This document shows, piece after piece, positions 2,851-43,826 of a stretch of DNA of 64,000 nucleotides. Under the pieces are notes generated by a model. The model was not told the DNA's origin, made no database searches, and saw nothing but the letters and a program-made list of their open reading frames with translations. How positions within the stretch are numbered: the first letter of the stretch is position 1; every line of letters begins with the position of its first letter. Both the position numbers and the translations under genes were made by a program. The DNA comes from Hydractinia symbiolongicarpus (lineage: Eukaryota; Cnidaria; Hydrozoa; Anthoathecata; Hydractiniidae): positions 10,106,001-10,170,000 of the forward strand of contig NC_079887.1 of assembly GCF_029227915.1 (NCBI RefSeq). The letters run 5' to 3'.

Positions 2851-4708
2851 AAATTTAAAAGCTGCAATAGTATTCTTAAGCTGCTCCATAAGATGTCCTG
2901 GTGCTACTTTCATGGAGAATTCTTTGACCAGAGTGTGCACGTTATTGTGTGTCAATTTTGGAGAAAAATAAAATATATAACTGTAAAAAAGAACAGAATA
3001 TTATTATGTAATGATTTTCATCAACGTTGTCAACACTTTGTATCATTTATTTTACATTTTTTTTTGTTCCACAAGAATTTACAAAGTTTAATGAATGAGT
3101 CCAGATACAATATTATCATACATGGGTTGAAATTCTCAGCTGTAAACATAACTGGAACTTATGTTTGTTTCCAACGTCAAACCAACAACCTCTGTGCCGT
3201 GTACAGGGACAAAGGAATTTTGTCAATTATTTTTCTTAATTTATGTATTTTATTGCGCTTTTAAAATGAGTGCTTTTTGCTTGTTTAATAAAACTGGTGC
3301 AGTATGTTTTTTAACAAAGTCTTGTTTTTTTATAAAAAAAATAGCTAGCAATACATTAATAAGTTGGAAAAGGTTAGTATGTATATTTTTGTTTGATCTA
3401 AACGCTACAACAAAATTTTGCCGTTGTCAGGTTTTACTTCGAGGACAATCATACCATCAAAAGCTAATTGCTGTTGTAAATTCCAATTTTGATCATGGCT
3501 GAGAATTTCAACATAATGGTAGTTTTAAAGAGAGCAGCTAACTTTTAATCATGTTTAATAACCAGCACCAGGAGTTTTGTTTTCTTGTGACAGGTGTCAT
3601 TGTTTGTATTTGGGTTTGACAGAGACTCAAATATGTGTTCCTTATTGCTGAAGATAATGTTTTCGTTGACACTAAATTATAAAATAAAAATGGATAATAA
3701 ATATGTAAAATAATAAAAAAAACCCATCCAAACTTCATTGTTACAGATACACTGTTATGGTTATTATTTAAGGTCAATCAACATTGCATTATGACTTTCA
3801 TTTGTTGTTTCTTATTCATATATTTAACAAAAATAACTGCATTTATTTACTTTATGGTAATAAGGCTAGTCTTAACTTACTATTGATGTGTGATTAGAAG
3901 AGTAAAAGCTTATTTATAAACTGTGTCACATGATTGCAAAATCTCACAAGGAACCAAGTATTGTTAATAAATTTTATTAACATAACTTTCAACAAATTTA
4001 TAAAAACACATGCTTAATAGGAAAATTCAGGCCTTATATTCTACTGCACTTAACCCATCACTTATATATGGAGTCAAAAAAGAAGGGTTATTATGCCCCC
4101 CATCCCCCATCTGGTGTAAGCCATTGAATGTAAAAACAGAAGTGATACCTTACCTTCTGTTAACTCTAAAGAGTATAGTTTCTCAAAATGACCCATACAA
4201 GACCAAAATAGTCTCTTCTTATTGCATTTAGTCCCAATGTTGAATTTCTATCTGGTCACATTGTCAAAAAATATAGGTAAAATTTCAATACAAGTGAAAG
4301 CAAGTTTAGTCTTGAAATTAGGTATGCCTATGGCTTTGAAAGCCGTTAATGGCTTTGAAGCCGTTATTTAATACATATTCAGATCTGTGATAAAAAAGTT
4401 TTTTTTGATATATATATTTTTTTGCAAAAGTTATGAAATAAACCATTTTATTAACAGCTGCTCCTGTAAAACAATTTCTAAAATTTTTGATTGCTTTTTT
4501 TCGATTTTTAAGACTTTGATTTTAATTATTAATTATATAGCTTTTAGCAGTATAGGAAATAAGGAAATATCTATATGTTGTGTTTTTTTATTATTTTAAA
4601 ATTACTATGTATAACTTTGTAGCTATGTAAAAGAAATTTTATTTTAATGATCCCCAAGAATTTACTGGTGTTTAGAAATAAAGACACAAAAATTTAAGGA
4701 CTGCAACA

Positions 4709-7700
4709 ATGTCTTCTTCATTGCGAGTTGGAGTTGTACCACAGCGATTGCCAGGAACATTATGGGAAGAATTTTGCACTGAATGTGGCACTATGGCCGC
4801 AATAGAATTTGCACGAAAATCTGCTGGGTTTGTTTCACAAAATGAGGTTTATAATAGTAGTACATTTTTTAACAAGGCTCCACGAAAATTTGTAGATACG
4901 TTTTATGTTGAATATGAACGCGAATTGCAACGTATTGCTCAGGAAACTGAGGAACGAGCAAAAAGGGAAAATGCGCAGAACAAGAAAGCAAGTAATAGAA
5001 AACTGTCTCTTCGTGTCAAAAACATGTTTAAAAGAACTGCAGCAATTGATAAAGAGAATAAAGAACCCAACCAAAATGGCCATGTTGAGGCAGGGAAACC
5101 AGTAAACCCTGTAGAAACATTAACTGATAAAAACAGTGCTGGTCACGACATTGTAAAAGAAGGATTGATGCATGAGCTGGCTAATATTGAGGGTCGAGGT
5201 GATGATGGTTTAACATGGCAAAAATGCAGATTGGTTATGTCAAAAGCTCCAGGTGGATTTATGCTAGAGTTTTATGTCCCCCCAAAGGTTTGTTAAATGT
5301 ATTCTTCTTCTGACTTTACATTCTAAGAATGTTTTATATAGAGCATTAGTGACTAAATAAGTATACTTGCTCATATAAAGCAAATTGAAATTAAAAATAG
5401 AATTATACGTTTGCAGTGGCTTATTGCTGATAATGTGATTTTCAGGATATGCTTTTTATAAAAACTGGAAACCCCATTTTTAAAGAAACGGAAGTTTTTT
5501 CTTTCCATGTTCTTAAAACTTAACAATCTTTATAAGGGTAAAAAAAAAACAGTCAATTATAGCTTGTAATAAGCTGTTTACAGCCTTTTTTTAGTCCTGA
5601 CTGTACAGCAAAAAATAAAATAATTTTTGTTATATGTGATTTAGTAGAATGCGGCATAAACTACCTTTTTTTGTAAATGCTTAAAAATTTGATGGAGGCT
5701 TAAAATCGAGATTATTTGGGGCACAGTTAAACCAGTCATGACAATATCCAATTTATTAATATTATTAATACTTTGCTTACTTTTTCCATAGGCTTCAAAA
5801 CCGAGAACTGGAGTATTTTGTTTTTTAATCCACGAAGCGAGGAAGGCATCTCTTTTGGAAATGCCAGACTCTGACTGTGTTTTTATCATAAAGGTATGAA
5901 AATATAGTATTATATGTTTTTAATACAGGTCAGGCATGCACTTAATTTGTATGCAAAATATTTTGCACATAATTCCAGTTCTAATTTAATTAAAAGGCAA
6001 TTTAATATTTTTTGGGTCAGTCAGTATGCAAAATAAAATAAGTAAAGAAAAGTGACAGTATGTCAGGAATTTAGGGTTTAGATGGTCAATCAGAACTATC
6101 ATTATTTTCCAAAATAATAGCAGTGATTAAATTTTAAAAATTAAGAGCAATCATTTTTAACCAATCTGTTCAATAAATACGTTTATATTACATTTTTTAA
6201 ATCCAAGGTAGGAAATTTCCATAGTTGGAAAAGTGCAAAAATAGCTGGAAAAGTGCAAAAAATGTCAGAAATGCTGTTGTGGTTTGAAGAACACACAAAA
6301 TGTGAGTTTGAAGTTCAATTGAGAATGCAACAGGCCTGTAGAACAACTAATTAAATTGCCTTCGCCTGATAAACTATCCACAAAAATTAGTATGTACGAA
6401 AAATAAGTACAAATAACTACAACTATTCATATTTTTTACTGTTTAATTTTTCAAGGCTGTTAACAACAAAGAATATATGCTCGCAGCTTCTTATGAAGAA
6501 GAGATGAATGAGTGGCTTCAACTTATACATAAATGCATGGAAGAAGATTCATCTGCTCCTAAGTAAGTTGCAAACTATTCCTTGTATGCTTACACTGTAC
6601 TTAATTCATTGACTTTTATGTGCACTAGTTTTTGCAAAAATCCATTGGTATTTAACGTATCTTTTTTTTCTGGTAAGCATATAGGGTAATAAATTACTAT
6701 ATGGGGTGGGTGGAAGGGCGGGGATTAAGCTGTGCACAACCATACTTAACACACAAAATATGACTATTGAAAAATCTGCAGGAGTTTGCCCATCACAGTA
6801 AAGTCAATGAAACAACATCAAATTTGTTGTTTGTAGCTTCAAGATTTTATGCGTCATTTGTAGTTGACCCAGGTTTTTACCGACAGACAGCAAATGGTAC
6901 AAATCATAATCCCTGTATTTTCACCTATTGTACATTTCCCAGACATCACTATTTTCACCCATTGTACATATCCCACACATCACAATTTTCACCCATTGTA
7001 CATTTCCCAGACATCACTATTTTCACCCATCATACATTTCCCAGACATTACTATTTTCACCCATTGTACATTTCCCAGACATCACTATTTTCACCCATTG
7101 TATACATTTCCCAGACATCACTATTTTCACCCATTGTACATATCCCACACATCACAATTTTCACCCATTGTAATCCCACACATCACAATTTTCACCTATT
7201 GTACATTTCCCAGACATCACTATTTTGTGCATCCTAAACACAAAATGTCACTTTGGCTACCATTTTGAGCAGAAAATTGGTATTATTATAGAAAATGTGC
7301 ATCCATTTGTGTGTATGGTAAAGGCCTTTGAAAAACATGTCTTGATTTCTTTTAGCACACCAAATAATCCAGCCCCCGATCCTTCACCAGCATTTTCATT
7401 TGACAGCAAAAAAATTCAACAATCACTGATACAATTTGAAGAGCAAGGTAAGAAACAATCAAATCTATCAAACTCGATTTTATGTTGTTTGTGATTTGTA
7501 ATTTCTTAAAATTTTAAATAAACTTGACAAAGTAGACATTGCTAACTCTTTGTACATTTTATATATCATCGCTTGAGAACAAGACTGTGCTATGTCCATT
7601 TTTGTGAAAATTGAGAATTCATTGGGAAAATTTTCTCTGCATTGAAAGCTGTATTCTGAACAATGCTATGTCCACAATAGGCTATTAAACATTGCCAAAT

Positions 7701-10700: not shown

Positions 10701-11680
10701 ATGAAGATCATCCATTAAGCGTCTATCCGTGGTTTCATGGTACAATTACACGAATACAAGCATCAATGTTGGTGCTTAATGGTGGTCAATCGTGGGATGG
10801 CGTCTTCTTAATTCGTCAAAGTGAAACACGTCGTGGTGAATATGTGCTAACGTTTAATTTGCAAGCTCGATCGAAGGTAAGTAAATAATGTTTGGGTGTT
10901 GTCTTGTAGAAGGGTCTGGTTAATAACGTGTTATACATTCTAGAAGGTGAGCCTGGTGTTGTTTTGTAGTGTAGATTTATTAGTTTGTGATTTTAGATGC
11001 TTGCCTTTTTTATCTGTTTACAAATTTTTGCAGTACAAAAAACGACGTTACTGTGTATTTCTTTTCAAAAATAATTTTAAATATTGCAAATTGTTGAAAT
11101 TAGAAGTTTAGAAAAAATTAAAATTATTCTTGACGTCAGCGGTAAGTGTTTCGTGTACTTTGAAAAAAAAATCGTTGTCACCAACCGAAAGCAAAAAACA
11201 TACTACAAGACTACCCATTCTTTTGCGAAAACTTAGGGAGGGATTAACCTACTCCTACTATTCGCGACCGAAATAAATAGTGATTGTCAACAATCCTAAC
11301 CAACTTTCTTTTCCTGTTTATTTTTATAGCATTTACGGTTATCACTGAATCCAGAAGGGAATTGTCGCGTGCAACATTTAAATTTTCAAAGCATCTTCGA
11401 TATGCTGGAGCATTTCCGTACTCATCCCATACCTTTAGAGAACGCCGCTGCAGGGGATGTTTTCTTAACAAACTTTGTTGTCTGCGATGAAGTGTTACCG
11501 GAAACGGTGAGACCAAATCCGGAAGAGATTAGTCGAATGCGCAGAGCAAACACTATAAATACTGGTGCAATGAGTAGAATTGCCCAAAATGCGAGAATAC
11601 AAACTGGTTCAGTAAGACAACCTCGCAGTGATACAGACAACAGACCGAAGGCTGTGAGCAATCAATACGCTATGATTTAG
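4709..11680 (+). CDS. SH2B-family adaptor protein (dimerisation domain, PH, SH2)
   Basis: The eight coding exons are 4709-5287, 5792-5893, 6456-6562, 7356-7447, 8623-8745, 9726-9845, 10659-10876 and 11330-11680. All junctions are GT-AG, the phases agree, and the product is 563 residues. Residues 16-80 match the phenylalanine-zipper dimerisation domain (LWEEFC...AAIEFARK). Residues about 148-258 form the PH domain, with [20 protein letters not shown] and ALEMPD-like LLEMPDSD. Residues about 399-495 form the SH2 domain, with [18 protein letters not shown] (phosphotyrosine-binding Arg427) and [19 protein letters not shown], which is diagnostic for SH2B1/2/3 and insect Lnk. Family members dimerise and link activated receptor tyrosine kinases and JAKs to downstream signalling at the membrane. 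The start is the first Met, directly before the dimerisation domain. The protein ends NQYAMI, with a tyrosine near the C terminus. A single gene of this type fits an invertebrate. Orthology to one vertebrate paralogue is not implied. Confidence 0.95.
6919..7226. repeat. 34-bp tandem array in SH2B intron 3
   Basis: About nine head-to-tail copies of a 34-bp unit fill this part of intron 3, just upstream of exon 4. There are two variants: CCCAGACATCACTATTTTC and CCCACACATCACAATTTTC, each followed by ACCCATTGTACATTT or ACATAT. Because 34 is not a multiple of three, all three forward frames stay open and read alike. The resulting 81-156 residue frames are repeat artefacts. Confidence 0.9.
7565..8044. 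mobile_element. Inverted-repeat (MITE-like) element in SH2B intron 4
   Basis: The left end, about 7565-7597, reads ATCGCTTGAGAACAAGACT then GTGCTATGTCC. The right end, about 8012-8044, is its near reverse complement (GGACATAGCATAGTCTTGTT then CTCCAGCGAT). Similarity continues inward for some 30 further bases. The element is about 480 bp with no coding capacity, which fits a non-autonomous DNA element. I could not settle the exact ends or a target-site duplication, so the superfamily is unassigned. Confidence 0.7.
9473..9609 (+). other. Possible alternative terminal exon of the SH2B gene
   Basis: Between the exons at 8623-8745 and 9726-9845 there is a good acceptor (TTTAATTTTTAG) followed by an open stretch. 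Spliced onto the phase-1 donor at 8745, it reads [19 protein letters not shown] and continues to [15 protein letters not shown] before a TAA at 9607-9609. The flanking exons also join each other in phase, so this segment is not required. If used, it would end the protein before the SH2 domain. No transcript evidence is available here. Confidence 0.3.
10179..10228. repeat. Near-perfect 50-bp palindrome in the intron before the SH2 exon
   Basis: TAGCAAATTTGTAACC at the left and GGTTACAAATTTGCTA at the right are exact reverse complements. The pairing continues through ACTTAT/ATAAGT with one mismatch, leaving a loop of about four bases. In RNA it would form a strong hairpin. It may be the remnant of a small palindromic element, and I see no protein-related role. 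Confidence 0.8.
10318..10437. repeat. (TTG)n-type microsatellite
   Basis: An impure GTT/GCT/TTT trinucleotide run lies in the same SH2B intron. It yields cysteine-rich and threonine-rich frames on the two strands that are not genes. Confidence 0.9.
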
Positions 11681-14021: not shown

Positions 14022-14027
14022 CGAAAT
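14022..14027. repeat. Left target-site duplication (CGAAAT)
   Basis: CGAAAT directly precedes the left terminal inverted repeat and is repeated exactly at 18691-18696, directly after the right one. An exact 6-bp match at both ends of an exact inverted repeat marks the insertion boundaries. Confidence 0.9.
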
Positions 14028-14087
14028 TACGATGGCCCACAAGGGTCACAGTGCGAGAATTTTTTATACACTGCGCGAGAATTCTAA
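14028..14087 (+). repeat. Left terminal inverted repeat (60 bp)
   Basis: It is identical, base for base, to the reverse complement of 18631-18690. It includes GGGTCACAGTGCGAGAAT and the first GCGCGAGAATTC subterminal motif. Similarity stops abruptly after GAATTCTAA. Further GCGAGAATTT-type motifs follow to about 14125 without exact pairing. Confidence 0.95.
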
Positions 14088-14253
14088 CTGCTGTGCACGA
14101 GAATTTCGAAACTGTGCGCGAGAATTTATATTTGTGTTAGAAAGTTTCTTATGAAAATCAAATTTATGCTATTTTACAGACCTTGGTCTGAAGTTTATCT
14201 GCAGTATCCTGGAACCGAGGTTGAACTCCACCACAGCGCCTCCCATACCATTT

Positions 14254-16633
14254 ATGGAGGATTTATTTAGGTATCTCGGGGTGAGAGCAAAGTTGTTCTG
14301 TTTGTTTTCCAAATTCAAAATGAAGAAGTCAGGAAAGAGGTGAAAGAAGAAATTGAAAGAAGTATTTTGTCAAAACAAGACCAAGACCAAGCTTGTAATG
14401 GAGAATCCAGTGATATCAAGAACGAACAGAAGAGACATGGAAACATCACTACCAGATTAAACACTTTGTTGACAAAGATAACCAAAAAAAGTGTTCGTGC
14501 TGCTGGCAATGCTTCAACAAATAAAAAGGATATTAGAATCCAAGTAAGGTGGATGAGAGAGGTTGGAGGAAATTGGATAAATGTGAAACAAGCAGAGGGA
14601 GGAGGAAGCCGTTTCATTGCTTTAAATCAGGAGAATCAAACTTTCAAACATTTATTGACCAAAAGTCTGGATGTTTATTTTGGTGTGTGTGGAAAGAACT
14701 GTTTCAATGAAGACCGACTAGAAGTAAGTGACTGCAAAACTGGAAGATGTTACCGGTACTACAGTCAACTTACGGGACAGTATTCCAGATTATCTTAAAG
14801 AAAGGGGTTTGTTTCAATCAAAAACATGGTTTGTTTTGAGAACTAGTTTAAATGATAATGGTCCAGAGCTTAAAAATTATTTTGATTATGATTACAATGT
14901 TGATTGTATGTCACTCTCTGATTCTGAGCCTATTACTGCTGCTGGTCCTGCTTTGAAAAGAAAAAATTGTGACACATGCTCGGGCACTTACTTCAGGTTT
15001 TACATCAGATGTAAGCAAGATAAGGAGTTTGAACAGTCATTGCAGAAAGATAGTCAAAAGAATTCATTTGACTCTGAAGGTGGATCAACATCCGAAGAAC
15101 CATCCAATGAAAATATTACTGACAGATCTATCGAAAATTTGCGAGAACAACGTATTAAAGCTTTATCTAGTAATTCACCAAAATTAAACTTGGAGAAGGA
15201 ATGTTTTGTCAGCGAAGTTCATGAAAAAAAGTAAAGTAACTTTTAATATCAGAAGAAGATGTGTATTTAATGATGTTATGCAAAAAATGGAGGTGTTTTT
15301 TTCAGATGCTGAATTGTCTCCTTTCAAGGTAGAATTCACCAGTATGGGTGGTAAGGAAGCTGGTGTAGACACAGGTGGTCCTACTCGTGAGTTAATATCG
15401 CTATTTTATCAAAGCACGATTGGTAAACTTACATATGGCCTTCAAAATAATGAATTTTTCATCCATGATCTGCAAAAGTTAACAGAAGATCAATATATGT
15501 TTTTTGGAAAATTTGTGTCATTATCTTTATTACATGGTTGCAATCCACCATACTTCAGTGCTGGTCTCAGTGGCTTTATAGTGGGTGAGTTCTTTAAAAA
15601 CGAAAACCTATTTTTGCCTTCATGTCATTTTACTGCTTCATGAAATATGTACATTTCGACATTGTTTGGGGGGGGATATGGTTTCAAAGGTTCAGGGTCG
15701 GTGAGTCTAAGGATTAACTAACATGTGATTTCCAAGGTGGCGTTTGGTTTACATTAGTGTTGATGTATTGAAGCTTTATAAAAGGCCTTGTTTGCATGTG
15801 TTTCAGTGAATTATTTGGCAAATTTTGATATTGACTTCTTGTTTATGCCTAAGATTATTTAATCTATTTCAGGGCATAAAGACTGTTTATGTTGCATTGA
15901 TGACATACCCAGCATTGACCTCAAAATTAAACTTGAAAATATCAGATATTGTGATAAAGAAGCAGAATTTCAGTCTCAAGTTCAACGTTTCCATGAACGA
16001 TTTGACTATGGTTACAACAAACCATGTCCGAAACTAGCAGACAAAACTGATTTATTGCAAAAGGTTGCTCACCACATCATAATATCTATGCAATTAGAGG
16101 AAATTCAGCAATTTTTAAAGGGACTTGAAGCTTTTGGTGTTCTTGATCTGCTTAGAAAGCATCCTTTGGAAGCCATGAAGTTATTCACTTACAACCAAGA
16201 TCTTGTTGATCCTGAGGTTATCAAGTCCTGTTTTGATGTAACATATTCGAACGAAAGTGATAAAGCTGCCCTAGAGGAATATATTTTTTACAATTGGAAA
16301 AACTTCCTCGATGAATTGGGTCACGGTAAGTCTATCACTGTTAAAACTTTCACCGTATCTGATGTCGAGAATGAAAAAACAGAAGAGAGTGCTAAATCAG
16401 AGAAAAAACTTTCACTAGGCGATGTTATGATGTTTCTCACAGGCTCTACTGTTGTACCTAATAACGAAAAAATCAAAGTTCTTTTTGATCATATGACTAG
16501 AAAGGGAAGAATCAGTGTTTCGACATGTCAGTATCAGCTCACTTTTCCGGTTGTACCAAGATATACTGGGTCAAAATTTTCTAGAAACATTACCGAAGAT
16601 ATTATTAATTCGCCGGGCTTTGGCATTGTTTAA
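14254..16633 (+). CDS. HECT-domain E3 ubiquitin ligase carried by the transposon (two frame breaks)
   Basis: A HECT N lobe and C lobe are clear: VEFTSMGGKEAGVDTGGPTR at about 15332-15395, then ISLFYQ, then a C lobe with TGSTVVP, GRISVSTCQYQLTFPVVPRY and a C-terminal INSPGFGIV. The Cys in VSTCQYQL sits where HECT ligases carry the thioester cysteine, so catalysis is possible. One intron (15585-15872, GTGAGT donor) joins in phase. An upstream intron (14271-14332) with a start at 14254 is tentative. The frame breaks twice: at the A run 14736-14739 and at the A7 run 15224-15230. Each is consistent with one surplus A, so the copy is mutated, mis-assembled, or slips. The N-terminal 250 residues are charged and unrecognised. 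Family role: transfers ubiquitin from E2 to substrate; substrate unknown. Confidence 0.8.
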
Positions 16634-17044
16634 AAATACTTGTTGTTTGATAAGTATATTTTATCAGTGGTATTCTATTGTTTTTTGAATTAGCATATTT
16701 TTTAAAACATCATTCAGCTTCGCAAATATTGGCCACGACAATGCTTGAATTGTGTTTCTCATAGCCGTTGACACGGGGGGGGGGTGTCTTTTGTTTTGTC
16801 TTCTGTTTTTGTTGTGTTTTAATTCTGAATGACACAGATTTTCTTTCCTCTATTTTGTTCTGTATTTTATTTTTAATGAAGATGAATCAGTGCTTTTTAT
16901 CATTGATAATGGACCATTCTTCTATTTTGTTTTTTATTTTAACTTTTAATACAGCTGTTTCAAATGTATTAAACATTTTGTTTCAAGATTGAAGATTTCA
17001 AGATTACATCTGTATTTTTCAACACCAACTTGTTACATTGTTAT

Positions 17045-18367
17045 CTACATAAATTCTGCTACAGCATCAAGTAAAAGAAAGTATATTTCTAAGGCTTGCT
17101 GAATTGTACTTGGACGTCCATTTGGGTGTCCTTTCATTGCAAGGACTGTGTCTGCAAATTCAATAAACTCAGGCTCGTTGTCTGCAACAGCAATAGCAAA
17201 TGTAGGATCGTTGAATTCGCTGATGTCACTAATGTCAACAAATTTCTTGTATGATTTGCTATTGTATAGCTCTGGTATAAAATGTAAGGTATCTGGACGT
17301 CCGCGTGGTAGGGTTGAACCTCTGCTCGGTGCAATGATATGTTGATTCCAGCGCACCGCCATATCATCTAAATCTTTTCGAATCAAGTGCATGAAACAAA
17401 AACGAGCGCATTGAGCAATCAATACATTGCCACCATCCAAAGAGCCCATCCCAGAAAGCTCTGCAAAGAACTCTCTCCACCACATTGGTCTATCCTTGGC
17501 CAACTGCGACCAAAAACATTCAATCCTTTGATTGTTCGGAGAGGATCCCACGATGAAACTGCCGAGACCAGCATACTCATCCGTGTGATCAGCCCTCATG
17601 CATATCTGAATGGCCTCGATTATGCTGTTCTCGGTCCCGTCATCGCTTCTTATTCTAGTAGGTAGTCTGTTCAACTGGGTTACAGCTTCTAAGAAATAGT
17701 TGGCAACAACTTCTGGTCGTTTATTTGTGGGTCCAACTTCGAGCCAAATTAATCGGCGGGAAAACCCGTCAATACAACCGTGTATACTGAAACCGTAGGG
17801 CTTCAGTTTGTCATGCCCGTCCAAGTGCCATAAAAAATCTGGCCCAGGTACGCTGTAGATTCGGCGCCTCAACCGTTTCTTTGCGCGACTTTCAACTCCT
17901 ACTGGATCCAACTCTCTTAAAATTTCCATGACAGATGATCTTCTGGCTGGTATTCCGTTTGCCTTTATGGCCTTCCACAGCTTTCTGTAGCCTAAAAAAA
18001 GTAAACAACTGTAATAACAGTTTTCACGCCTGGTAGAAAATGCTTGGGAACAAGACATTAAAAAATTTAAGTCCTGTTCGTATACTCATGCTATAATACC
18101 TAGTGACTTTCCACTTTCAGTCAATTCACTTGAAATCGCTTGAATCACTTCCTCTCTGGACTCGTACTGACCAATGCGTCGTCTCAAGCCCATTTTTCTG
18201 AAACTTCTTTTCAATGTTGACAAACTTATGTAAATACTGTGATGAATTGCAAGAAAAGATATTATTTCAAGATTTGTCATGTCTTGAGAGAAGTATTGCG
18301 ATATCAAAGAATCACGATCACTGTTAACACTCACTGAAATGCATGGCAAGTGCGTTGGTATAGGCAT
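17045..18367 (-). CDS. IS3-like DDE integrase/transposase (rve core), intron-containing
   Basis: Two minus-strand exons, 18367-18100 and 17991-17045, join in phase across a 108-bp GT-AG intron and restore SGKSLGYRKLWKAIKANGI, giving 404 residues. The N-terminal part (residues about 20-125) looks like helix-turn-helix DNA-binding modules, and GYRKLWKAIKANGI matches the pre-integrase segment of bacterial IS3 transposases. The catalytic core has D147 in WHLDGHDK, D207 in RSDDGTEN and E247 in NNQRIECFW, with 39 residues between the second Asp and the Glu, which is a complete DDE triad. Its role is cut-and-paste transposition in the nucleus by binding the terminal repeats. The spliceosomal intron excludes bacterial contamination. 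The frame is intact, so the product could still be active. Confidence 0.9.
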
Positions 18368-18519
18368 TATGGCTTCGAGCTATGCTTTCGAAAGTCCATG
18401 CTGTTTCCATTAAAAGAGAAAAAAAGCGCGAAAGAAAATTAATTTTAAAGACCAGATCGATGATATGTAGGCCTGCGATATTTAAAATATTTTTTCGTCC
18501 AGTCTATATAAATTTTCTC

Positions 18520-18630
18520 GCAATATTTGGAAATTCTCGCGCATTGTTGAATATTCTCGCGCAGTGTACAAAAAAATTCTCGCATAGTTTATAAGCTCTC
18601 GCGCAGTGTAGTGGAAAATTCTCGCACATT
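18520..18630. repeat. Subterminal TTCTCGCGCAGTGT repeats at the right end
   Basis: Between the transposase start and the right inverted repeat, a motif of the form (A)TTCTCGC-GCA-GTGT recurs about six times with 18-25 bp spacing. Single-base variants include CTCGCATAGTTTA and CTCGCACATTTTA. Weaker copies in the opposite orientation lie inside the left end. Arrays like this commonly bind transposase in cut-and-paste elements. That function is inferred here. Confidence 0.75.
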
Positions 18631-18690
18631 TTAGAATTCTCGCGCAGTGTATAAAAAATTCTCGCACTGTGACCCTTGTGGGCCATCGTA
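18631..18690 (-). repeat. Right terminal inverted repeat (60 bp)
   Basis: It is the exact reverse complement of 14028-14087 and ends ...CCCTTGTGGGCCATCGTA. It is followed at once by the duplicated target CGAAAT at 18691-18696. Confidence 0.95.
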
Positions 18691-18696
18691 CGAAAT

Positions 18697-22500: not shown

Positions 22501-24426
22501 ATATACGTCTTTTCAATCATTGGCGCCGTAGATTAGTGGTTATAGCTCTTGTACTCTGTGCGGGAGACCGGGGTTCGATTCCTCTTGACGGCGATTCAAC
22601 ATGGGCGAGTGAATGTTACCATAGCCCCGGGTTAACCCAAGCCATGTGAGAGAAATTGGGAAGATGGCACACTGTGTGGGCCGTTGGATGTTGCCGGGAG
22701 TTGTCTAGTAGAGCGCGGGCCCTAATTGGGTCTGCGTCGCTCAAAATGAGCATTAAATACTCTAGGACTCTCCATCTAAGCCATGGCCCCTCCTGGAAAT
22801 AATAGACAGGGTATATCCCTCGATATTTGTGAGGCTAGCCATGTAAATATGCACATCTATCTATCTATCTATTTTGCTTGTATAAGCTTTGTTCTACTTC
22901 TCCTCTTTACACCACTTTCATTGTAATCAACAAAGCTAAAAATTATCTTTTCATTTTATATTCCTTTAGTCTTATTTCAATTTTCGTAAAGTCTTAGTCG
23001 AAATAATTATTTTTTTTAATAACTGTGATTTATTTCTGGGTCATCACTTCAAAAGAAATGGATCCTTTTGAAGTGAATTGTGTAGTTTTTAGACGATTAA
23101 ATCAAAACAAATTTTGCGTCTATTTATTTTCCTAATTTTGCACACACTGAAAATCATTAACCTTATGACGTGTACTAACTGAAGGCGATAGAAATTTTTT
23201 GATTTGCTAAAATTTGAATGCCCTTTCACTGGACACAAATTAATGTCTATTGCTAAGTTCAATCGCTTTTTAATTCTATTTTTTAAAATTCTAAGTTTAT
23301 TTTAAAAAAGAAATGTTTTTTATTTCTTCTACCGCTTTAAAATACCCTCTATCGCTAGAATCAAAGAAATCTATTTAAGTACACCAGCTGAAAACCTGCT
23401 GAAAACCTACGAAAACCATTCGAAAATGGATGTACATTACTTCTGTGCAAAATCATAGCGAAAATATCTTATGCTGTTCCATTAGGTTTGTGCAAATAAT
23501 ATTTTATTTTTTTGTAAATCAGGTTCAGGTTCTTTTCGCGAGATTTAGTTTTCGCGCCATTCTCGCGCTCTTTTTCTCGCGCCTTTTTTACACTTTGGGG
23601 AAAGCTAGTGTAAATTTACAAGTATGTCATAGAACAATGTGGATAATCGCGTCCACTTCTGCGTATATTAGGTAAGGTTAGAAGGGAACTGGACTAAGAT
23701 ATCTCTGTATTAAATCGTACAGAGACTCCAGATATAAAATTTGTTAGACCTTACGTTTAGAATTTATAATATATTTTTAACTGTGCTGTATTGCTGAAGA
23801 TGACGCGCACAATTAAAGAAGACATGAGATGATGTAACTCGGGTTTGCTAAATTTTATTCTATTTCTATTACCAGGTGAAAACGTGCTAAAGGCGTTACG
23901 GAGACTTGGTGGAAATAAAAAGCCAATAAGTTCAGCCGATCGATGGAAAAAAAAGAAAACTGCTAATCAAGCTGAGAGTGAAGAAACGAAAAAAAGCAAA
24001 GTAGATTTATTGAAACTGACTGGTTTGGCTGATGATTTGTTGCAAAATGGCGACTTTCAAATTTACGAAAAAACATTTGAGAAATTAAATTTCGAAATAA
24101 AAGAAAGAGCAGCACAGTTTGAAGATGCAGTGGAGGACGAGGATGATGAGTTAGAGGCTGCTTTTAAGGTGGCTAAAAAAGCCTCTGAGGAGGAGAAAAA
24201 TGTAGAAGAACCTAAAAAGTCTATTGAAAAAGAAGAGGAAGAAGTCAGATGGTTTTATAAAATAGAGGATACAGAGCAAAGTAAGTTGTTAGGACCGTTT
24301 CCAAACTCACAAATGCTTACATGGTCAGAAGAAGGACGCTTCAAGAAAGGCGTTTATTGCCGAAAGGAAGGAAGCGAAGGGAGTTTTTACAATTCGCGCA
24401 GAATTGATTTTGATTTGTACTCGTGA
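19569..24426 (+). CDS. CD2BP2: CD2 antigen cytoplasmic tail-binding protein 2 (GYF-domain spliceosomal protein)
   Basis: The four exons 19569-19655, 20809-20977, 22191-22382 and 23876-24426 join in phase to give 332 residues. The N terminus MTKRKVTF matches the conserved start of the family. HSLDSD, DIEGQE, ITVTPFNL and the FDAQGNYI/WLDSVDW segments follow in the same order as in vertebrate CD2BP2. The GYF domain occupies residues about 272-332 (W-F-Y, LLGPFPNSQML, W, GVYCRK, FYNSRRIDFDLYS). Family role: the yeast Lin1/human U5-52K subunit of the U5 snRNP and tri-snRNP, binding proline-rich ligands in the nucleus. Oddity: the eponymous Gly-Tyr-Phe reads Gly-Arg-Phe here, while the rest of the domain is conserved. 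The length is close to the human 341. Confidence 0.95.
19880..20410. repeat. 84-bp tandem array in CD2BP2 intron 1
   Basis: About six degenerate copies of a unit of about 84 bp are present. Each contains CCCAACCTCGTACACRGTTA, then TTGTACGAAGTTGG, then an A-rich stretch and a GTAGAAGAAGT-like segment. The CCTCGTA words recur near 19945, 20030, 20115, 20200, 20285 and 20368. No frame is conserved across the units, so this is non-coding satellite-type DNA. Confidence 0.85.
22522..22872 (+). mobile_element. tRNA-derived SINE (best-preserved copy) in CD2BP2 intron 3
   Basis: The head folds like a tRNA: GCGCCGT at the start pairs with ACGGCGA about 70 bases on, with an A-box-like TAGATTAGTGG and a B-box GGTTCGATTCC. 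A tRNA-unrelated body follows (AACATGGGCGAGTGAATG, CCATGTGAGAGAAATTGG, GAGCATTAAATA), then a (CTAT)n tail. RNA polymerase III would start near 22522. Diverged copies lie at about 33900 and 47150. Confidence 0.88.
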
Positions 24427-42836: not shown

Positions 42837-43826
42837 TTGGTTTGCACTAGTGGTTTAAGTGAGTTTGGTGGGTATGAAGTTAAATGAGTTTAAATTTGAA
42901 CTTTAACTTGTGTATATGCACTATAAGTTAAAACTATTTTAATCTTAAATCAGTTAAAAAACAGAGTAGCACAAAACTGGTTTTAGGCTACACTGATTTT
43001 TATTAAAAGAAGGATCTCAGAGCTTTCAATAATCGAGTGTAAAAGAAAACATCACCAGTTTCATCAGTTAAATATATTGACGACATTTCTGCTGTATTAT
43101 CAAGTCATTTACAAATACTATTACGTAAAAGATTATTTAATCATTACGATTGTACGATACAATTATCATACGACATATTAATCAGCAAATATTAATAACA
43201 GAAAAGTAGCAATATTTCTATTCAAAGCAGGTTTATCCCTATGGATTAATTAACTCTCCTTCAGTTCTAGATCGTAATTGTTCCTACCGATGGAGAGTAT
43301 CGAGAGGCCTAGAATGATAGTATAAAACATATTAGGATGGGGCTAAAAAATAAAGACCTTGGTCGTTTTTCTGGTTCAAGCTGAGATCCCCATGTGTTCA
43401 TGGGCTCTTACTTTCAAATGTCAAGAATATTTTTTTTAAAGGAGTCCAGAGTCTCAGTGATATATTCCCCAGAAAAGGCCATACAATAATAAGTATACGG
43501 CCGAAACGTCGTCAATATATTTAATTGATGAAACTGGTGATGTTTTCTTTTACAGTCAATTATATCTATACAAACCAACATCTTTTAATAATCCTTCCAT
43601 AAACTCTACAATATTTTTCTTTATGATTTACAAATATCTGAAGAAAGACTTTTTACATCATCTGTTGACATTTTTAAAAATATTTTCTTTTGTCAAATTA
43701 TTTGAGGCATTGTCAGTATCTTTGAATTTATGCCGCAAATTTTAAACTCATACACACTAGGATTTTAATTTTAAAACAACCAGATAAATCGAGTTAAACT
43801 TACTTAAAACCCTAGTGTGAACTAAG
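42837..43826. mobile_element. Inverted-repeat element of about 990 bp containing a second inverted pair
   Basis: The outer ends, 42837-42867 (CTTGGTTTGCACTAG...) and 43796-43826, are reverse complements at about 25 of 31 positions. Inside lies a second pair, 43038-43089 and 43503-43554, matching at 50 of 52 positions. The outer ends suggest a non-autonomous DNA element. The inner pair carries a hammerhead-like motif and looks like retroelement tails in opposite orientation, inserted into the first. No transposase is present. Confidence 0.6.
43459..43525 (+). ncRNA. Hammerhead-ribozyme-like motif (Penelope-type retroelement tail)
   Basis: The order is a stem-I strand (GATATATT), a CAGAAAA segment where CUGANGA is expected, a stem-II hairpin (GGCCATAC ... 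GTATACGGCC), the invariant GAAAC, then GTCGTC and the second stem-I strand (AATATATT). This is the plan of hammerheads described in Penelope-like elements. The first core box is not canonical, so this copy is probably inactive. Confidence 0.45.

Follow-up and report, generated by a model that had tools for sequence, protein, structure and literature searches.

A HECT ubiquitin ligase gene as the probable long-term partner of the transposase in IS3EU/GingerRoot-type DNA transposons of Hydractinia symbiolongicarpus

The genome of the hydrozoan Hydractinia symbiolongicarpus contains a DNA transposon of the IS3EU/GingerRoot type in which the transposase gene is accompanied by one encoding a HECT-type ubiquitin ligase. 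The element was found at positions 14028-18690 of a 64,000 nt stretch of DNA, hereafter the window (NCBI RefSeq assembly GCF_029227915.1, contig NC_079887.1, positions 10,106,001 to 10,170,000 of the forward strand), in which coordinates without a locus label are given; it is 4,663 bp long, with two convergent genes lying between 60 bp inverted repeats. A preliminary description, made from the letters of this stretch, had read the ligase as transposon cargo. That reading holds but is understated: the ligase is common to distant IS3EU families in the genome, and therefore resembles a partner gene more than it does captured cargo. We estimate a probability of roughly 80% that these are two-gene transposons in which the ligase is a long-term partner, inherited with the transposase, not a recent capture of a host gene. 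The ends, the target duplications, both genes, mobility in multiple copies and the pairing across divergent families can all be read from the DNA itself. What appears to be new here is the HECT partner enzyme on a known type of transposon.

The terminal inverted repeats are perfect, as had been reported: the left one (14028-14087, + strand), which starts TACGATGG, is complementary at 60/60 positions to the right one (18631-18690, - strand), and the termini TACGATGG..CCATCGTA constitute TA..TA ends. The 6 bp target duplication originally recognised, CGAAAT, is likewise exact, with identical copies at 14022-14027 and 18691-18696. All other exact inverted repeats in the window (at least 20 bp, with arms within 12 kb) are of 20-29 bp. 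Internal to the left repeat is a subterminal region of degenerate GCGAGAATT repeats (14088-14270), the probable 5' flank of the ligase gene with a putative promoter role; sites of the motif are found at 14053, 14075 and 14118 on the + strand and at five places within 18532-18657 on the - strand. The corresponding region on the right (18368-18630), composed of the direct repeats D1/D2 and motif sites, is the probable 5' flank of the transposase gene, and may also act as a promoter. The genes are arranged tail to tail, with a short spacer (16634-17044) separating the convergent stop codons.

The transposase is encoded on the minus strand by two exons, of which the first (18367-18100) specifies a helix-turn-helix-like N terminus with a weak Clr5-type match (E=0.031) and the second (17991-17045) the DDE catalytic core. 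Removal of the predicted 108 bp intron between them (18099-17992, GTATTATA..TTTTTTAG, GT..AG) restores a single frame of 404 amino acids (aa) with zero internal stops, the product of which matches the Pfam integrase core rva_4 (E=2.4e-33), in agreement with the intact, intron-containing DDE transposase first proposed. Its D-D-E motifs are WHLDG, DDGTEN and NQRIE, with a spacing of 40 from the second D to the E. The NCBIfam models for the IS3 family (E=2.6e-9, 36.8 bits) and for IS481 (E=1.2e-6, 28.3 bits) also match, at scores below their curated cut-offs of 160 and 224 respectively, and HTH_21 was matched, below its cut-off, in the related loci L064-L066. The original assignment to IS3EU, made from family knowledge, is supported by the TA..TA ends, the 6 bp duplications and the IS3/IS481-like DDE transposase.

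On the plus strand, the HECT part of the ligase gene comprises 15221-15584 and 15873-16633, which would be joined by removal of a GT..AG phase 1 intron (15585-15872) placed on the basis of reading frame and splice signals. The first of these exons has an in-frame ATG at 15221 and encodes part of the N lobe, a profile of which with its relatives matches solely HECT ligases in the PDB; the second encodes the rest of the N lobe and the C lobe, with the catalytic Cys codon at 16526 and the stop at 16633. The preceding half of the gene (14271-15234, + strand) encodes an N-terminal domain of about 100 residues, common to the families, which looks beta-grasp-like from its pattern of strands and helices, and a CxxC zinc-knuckle region. 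In the window copy this half is read in two successive frames (14271-14798 and 14728-15234), so that the ligase gene is not a single open frame; an intron at the first change of frame was considered and discarded, since the candidates were shorter than about 45 bp. Hence the convergent HECT gene of the preliminary description stands as regards the lobes and the catalytic cysteine, and has to be amended in that the window copy of the gene is split over shifted frames. Both genes of the element are presumably spliced, and the ligase is presumed to be made and active. A knuckle of the CxxC..CxxC type is found ahead of the HECT domain in the window-family proteins and in those of the divergent loci L059 and L065; eight other copies of the window family retain its four cysteines, and the window copy has lost one.

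The HECT identity of this protein is firm because its relatives support it, the window protein alone giving a weak signal. By itself, the latter matched seven sequences in the PDB, all of them HECT ligases, with a weak best E of 0.017; Pfam HECT was not reported for it, a search with the C lobe alone gave zero HECT matches, and an AlphaFold2 prediction for the last HECT exon, from the single sequence without relatives, had a pLDDT of 32. A profile of five element HECT sequences (those of the window, L059 and L066 and two from L063), searched against the PDB at E up to 0.01, matched 52 sequences, every one a HECT ligase (best E=2.1e-14), and its alignment places the window Cys on that of E6AP. 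Amongst eight divergent cargo loci scanned, PF00632 was above its curated cut-off in four (L060, the first L063 copy, L065 and L066), below it in three (L062, the second L063 copy and L064) and unmatched for both exons of L059. The catalytic Cys is kept in 9/9 loci compared, which amount to eight families since L062 shares 97-98% identity with the second L063 copy. We regard it as quite unlikely that the cargo is HECT-like in fold yet no longer a ligase, the degenerate domain being used as a binding module; the window protein is only weakly similar to Pfam HECT, and in L064-L066 Pfam matches the C-terminal part only, but the Cys and the surrounding C-lobe motifs persist.

A search of the host genome (480.9 Mb, 76 contigs) with a 273 bp end query found 13 copies of the window family with a left end, all of which also have a right end, on nine contigs. 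Twelve are flanked by exact 6 bp target duplications that differ between sites; in the remaining one, L023, the left terminus is altered. Both genes are present along their length in eight copies (the window, L016, L018, L019, L020, L025, L026 and L027), a point that the preliminary description had raised for full-length elements, whilst the remaining five (L017 and L021-L024) are internally deleted; the start of the cargo gene is found in all five of these, and some HECT sequence in four. That description had also named copies with the same ends and no HECT gene as a refutation. This was not borne out: all 13 two-ended copies contain cargo sequence, the five that lack a complete HECT gene being internal deletions. 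Two copies have been further rearranged: L027 has approximately 2.7 kb of extra sequence inside the cargo gene, and in L025 (contig C14, 14851690-14861043) part of the copy has been tandemly duplicated together with its right flank, resulting in two right ends with the same flank. Multicopy HECT sequence inside inverted repeats with differing target duplications is not a single local host gene. The suggestion that a host HECT gene merely happens to lie between two repeat ends is accordingly rejected, its probability being negligible: nothing was found in its support, though the element does lie among host genes, being flanked by open reading frames (ORFs) with Phe_ZIP and GYF domains, and it is contradicted by the 13 copies on nine contigs that share ends and cargo, 12 with exact duplications that vary between sites.

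The same partnership was found across divergent families. Searching the host genome with the first HECT protein gave at least 69 matches, clustered into 43 loci, and with the transposase at least 120 (103 of 861 candidates scored), in 100 loci; a second HECT query, taken from the transposase locus L065, gave at least 72 (63 of 1107 candidates scored), in 54 loci. The following counts apply among the matches listed. With the first HECT query, a transposase is present within 8 kb at 25 of 43 loci, in 24 cases convergently, and 75 of the 100 transposase loci have no HECT match within that distance; with the second, 35 of 54 loci are near a transposase, 34 convergently. Combining the two, 60/97 HECT loci have a transposase no more than 8 kb away, 58 being convergent, with a median gap of 583 bp. 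Viewed from the other gene, 60 of the 100 transposase loci have a convergent HECT partner; for this count and for the 58/97 HECT loci in convergent pairs alike, the chance expectation is 0.32. Among 11 divergent HECT loci (L046, L047, L049-L051 and L053-L058), tblastn located a neighbouring transposase at 10, and the eleventh, L047, has a listed transposase 5.3 kb away. Of five transposase loci inspected that then had no listed HECT, three (L064-L066) proved to have one. Separately, a number of short transposase matches cover only about query positions 199-404 (e.g. C11:24511283, C4:4879039 and C6:31032148); L067 is one of them.

Several of these divergent pairs are elements in their own right. 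Nine HECT-bearing stretches (L059, L060, L061, L062, two in L063, L064, L065 and L066) were searched for inverted repeats, TA ends being part of the search, and six have their own repeats with TA ends and an exact 6 bp duplication: L059 (4,600 bp, TTTTAT), L060 (4,152 bp, TCAAAC), L062 (4,467 bp, CAAATC), L064 (3,528 bp, GGAATT), L065 (5,076 bp, TCATTC) and L066 (4,440 bp, GTTATC). The transposase locus L068 also has TA ends and an exact 6 bp duplication. The combination of repeat and 6 bp duplication was looked for and not found at L061 and at both L063 stretches. Single-base shuffles gave the combination in 0/30 cases and the next longest inverted repeat in the window is 29 bp, hence chance repeats are rejected as an explanation. 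At L063 (contig C4, 22109000-22118999), two different IS3EU-HECT pairs adjoin one another in opposite orientation.

The two genes also appear to have diverged together. Identities between HECT sequences correlate with those between the partner transposases (r=0.87, p=0.0002, nine loci), including when the near-duplicate is dropped (r=0.73, p=0.001, eight loci), and in both trees L064 and L065 form one group and L060, L062 and the second L063 copy another; the branching order among the window, L059 and L061 is weakly supported. The transposases partnering HECT genes are 34-61% identical to that of the window. In the last HECT exon, the comparison of the window with L059 gave proportions of synonymous (pS) and non-synonymous (pN) differences of 0.83 and 0.39 respectively; therefore amino acid change in the HECT protein has been held back between these families. 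More generally, between families synonymous change is saturated and HECT protein identity is near 46%. Amongst closer relatives, L060 and the first L063 copy differ with dN 0.015 and dS 0.027, and L062 and the second L063 copy with dN 0.039 and dS 0.052 in the HECT gene and dN 0.012 and dS 0.031 in a transposase segment. Within the window family, the pooled pN/pS ratio is 0.37 in a segment of the cargo gene's first half, 0.58 in the N-lobe exon and 0.66 in the transposase.

Several observations weigh against a HECT ligase as long-term partner. Within the window family, the last HECT exon has a pooled pN/pS of 1.62, calculated from few changes, such that the comparison of HECT sequences between copies advocated in the preliminary description gives a mixed answer when set beside the ratio for the N-lobe exon. 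Five pairs among L049, L050, L051 and L056, each with at most 11 changes, have dN approximately equal to dS. No copy of the 13 has both genes unbroken: both transposase exons are unbroken in five (the window, L016, L017, L019 and L026), the last HECT exon in five (the window, L016, L018, L025 and L027), and one copy whose HECT gene is undeleted has the long first cargo exon as a single frame of 509 aa that extends as far as the N lobe. Recent copies may therefore owe their movement to transposase from other members of the family. A further copy, L028, with a right end only, has a transposase and no HECT sequence. Amongst the matches listed, 39/97 HECT and 40/100 transposase loci have no convergent partner; these tallies include L059 and L062 (HECT) and L066 (transposase), yet each of the three carries both genes, and ordinary genes of the host may be present among the unpaired HECT loci. 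The second HECT query was itself derived from a transposase locus, so that the count of pairs obtained with it is not an independent sample. In two of the five spot-checked transposase loci, L067 and L068, a HECT catalytic domain was not detectable; L067 consists of a short transposase frame with an inserted reverse transcriptase-like gene, and L068 keeps only an apparent N-terminal cargo domain. L066 is placed differently in the HECT and transposase trees, and the C-lobe segment of the match to E6AP is weak by itself (i-Evalue 12).

Some of these points would suit a HECT gene that was captured once and has since hitch-hiked without benefit to the element, in particular the absence of any window-family copy with both genes unbroken, the last HECT exon having a ratio not below 1, and the lack of a HECT domain in L067, L068 and the right-end copy L028. 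We nevertheless consider a passive passenger improbable, given that between families protein identity is maintained while synonymous change is saturated, that the catalytic Cys is kept at every locus compared and that the HECT gene accompanies transposases so divergent from that of the window. Decay of individual copies after insertion, with constraint acting on the source lineage, fits these data, without being proven by them.

How the ligase might serve the element can be set out as a working model. The DDE transposase would cut out and integrate the element at its 60 bp inverted repeats, leaving the 6 bp target duplication, a step that follows established knowledge of DDE transposases. The cargo protein, with its beta-grasp-like N-terminal domain, CxxC zinc knuckle and C-terminal HECT domain with a catalytic cysteine, would be recruited to the same place, where its substrates could be chromatin or defence factors of the host that are present on the element, or else the complex formed by the transposase; the outcome of such tagging would be that the element escapes silencing or finishes transposition. 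We propose this local action, with the ligase arriving together with the transposase and tagging proteins present at the element, only tentatively. The best structural hint of joint targeting comes from the group formed by L060, L062 and L063, in which the HECT protein and the transposase both start with zinc ribbons of one general type; that both proteins of one clade have such a ribbon supports their being targeted together. The stretches concerned are at 4735-5196 and 1584-1700 in L060, 2072-2395 and 5423-6022 in L062, and 5980-6486 in L063. The match of Zn_Ribbon_1 to the L060 transposase (E=1.9e-7) is above the cut-off; those of Zn_ribbon_3 to the L062 transposase (3.8e-4) and of zinc ribbons to the HECT proteins of L062 (4.6e-5) and L060 (0.0015) are below it.

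A shared ribbon could also suggest a shared binding site through which the ligase ubiquitinates its own transposase or the strand-transfer complex, thereby limiting activity or removing that complex from the new insertion. The retained two-gene, tail-to-tail layout would accord with such a role in the transposition cycle; the zinc ribbon was, however, not reported by Pfam for the window proteins, and overall we find this rather unlikely. A third possibility, which we entertain with some reserve, is that a diffusible HECT protein directs the degradation of host defence proteins, such as factors of small-RNA, heterochromatin or methylation pathways, to the benefit of every IS3EU copy in the cell. 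The long-term association with the transposase is in keeping with anti-silencing of this type, and transposon-encoded TET/JBP in fungi, including that of IS3EU elements, is described in PMC12730594 as likely to aid escape from methylation-based silencing; against this, selection would have to act on a benefit provided in trans, which usually decays in single copies.

Other features of the window and of the searches deserve mention. Upstream of the element are a phenylalanine-zipper ORF (4682-5293, + strand; Phe_ZIP E=9.1e-7) and an ORF (11330-11677, + strand) that is SH2-like by our own reading, for which Pfam gave no match; together they are probably an SH2B-type adaptor gene, Phe_ZIP being a domain associated with SH2B adaptors. 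Downstream lies a GYF-domain exon (23833-24423, + strand; E=7.5e-12), presumably resembling CD2BP2. The 29 bp inverted repeat (43038-43066 and 43526-43554, about 460 bp apart), beginning TGTAAAAG, is exact and lacks an obvious flanking duplication; it is possibly a small non-autonomous element or a hairpin. A contig filed under a Cycloclasticus sponge-symbiont genome encodes an IS3EU-like transposase with 35% identity (L007, 1032-2357, - strand); neither a HECT gene nor a long inverted repeat was found on the 3.4 kb of L007, which probably derives from the sponge host and was binned with its symbiont. A transposase-pattern match, L001, was judged to be due to chance, as were HECT-pattern matches in viral contigs (L002-L006), where E=1e-3 was not reached by any HECT alignment and the ORFs, inspected by eye, are unrelated. 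Relatives of either window protein were not found in the search of viral contigs.

A durable second enzyme is known from few cut-and-paste transposons of eukaryotes. TET/JBP in fungi and Ulp1 in plants have opened questions as to how elements handle host silencing, and a ligase kept beside divergent transposases would make it testable which protein IS3EU elements tag, and with what effect on transposition or silencing. If the ligase proves to be ancestral to animal IS3EU elements, IS3EU would be a superfamily defined by a transposase and a protein-modifying partner enzyme. HECT 'gene family expansions' reported in genomes may be transposon copies. No description of a HECT gene in a DNA transposon was found in the portions of the open-access literature that were searched, Repbase notes and subscription papers lying outside this search, and an earlier description of the HECT-IS3EU association is possible.

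Compared with known systems, the transposase resembles those of the prokaryotic IS3 and IS481 families by NCBIfam, at scores far below the curated cut-offs; unlike them, the window element has a spliced eukaryotic gene, a partner gene and long repeats. The element-HECT profile aligns with the HECT domains of cellular ligases such as E6AP/UBE3A, Itch, WWP1, Rsp5 and HUWE1, from which the element proteins differ in their low identity, their own N-terminal domain and zinc knuckle, and their being mobile and multicopy. The Ulp1 proteases of plant MULEs and other transposons are, as here, ubiquitin pathway-type enzymes on DNA transposons, whereas Ulp1 removes SUMO-like tags and the ligase adds ubiquitin, and the transposon superfamily is unrelated. 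A lead in fish involves the HECT-type ligase G2E3. Unclassified repeats in Cottus have blastx matches to G2E3, termed a ubiquitin-protein ligase in a passage that gives neither a transposon structure nor a link to IS3EU (PMC5638112). Similar elements may therefore occur in fish (PMC5638112). If the ligase is ancestral to animal IS3EU elements, many of the multicopy HECT genes of fishes and invertebrates that are annotated as 'uncharacterised' or G2E3-like would be IS3EU cargo.

IS3EU/GingerRoot elements are described in the main text of PMC10045372 as having TA..TA ends, usually 6 bp duplications and a DDE transposase that is IS3/IS481-like and lacks an HHCC motif. Ends, duplication size and transposase type are shared by the window element, and the HECT partner is the addition here, the terms HECT and ubiquitin having no occurrence in that main text; nor do they occur in the main text of PMC12730594, which describes fungal TET+ IS3EU elements with a TET/JBP gene between oppositely oriented transposase and alpha-kinase genes. 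These fungal elements, with an alpha-kinase on the opposite strand, are by analogy the nearest parallel: they share with the Hydractinia elements a gene for a protein-modifying enzyme opposite the transposase and 6 bp duplications, and their TAYGG..CCRTA ends resemble those of L060 and L062 (PMC12730594). The partner differs, being an alpha-kinase, with TET/JBP in addition, in the fungal elements and a HECT ligase here (PMC12730594); Pfam scans of element proteins gave neither a TET nor a kinase domain. On balance, we lean slightly towards the HECT ligase being the ancestral second core gene of animal IS3EU elements, the counterpart of the alpha-kinase gene of fungal IS3EU.

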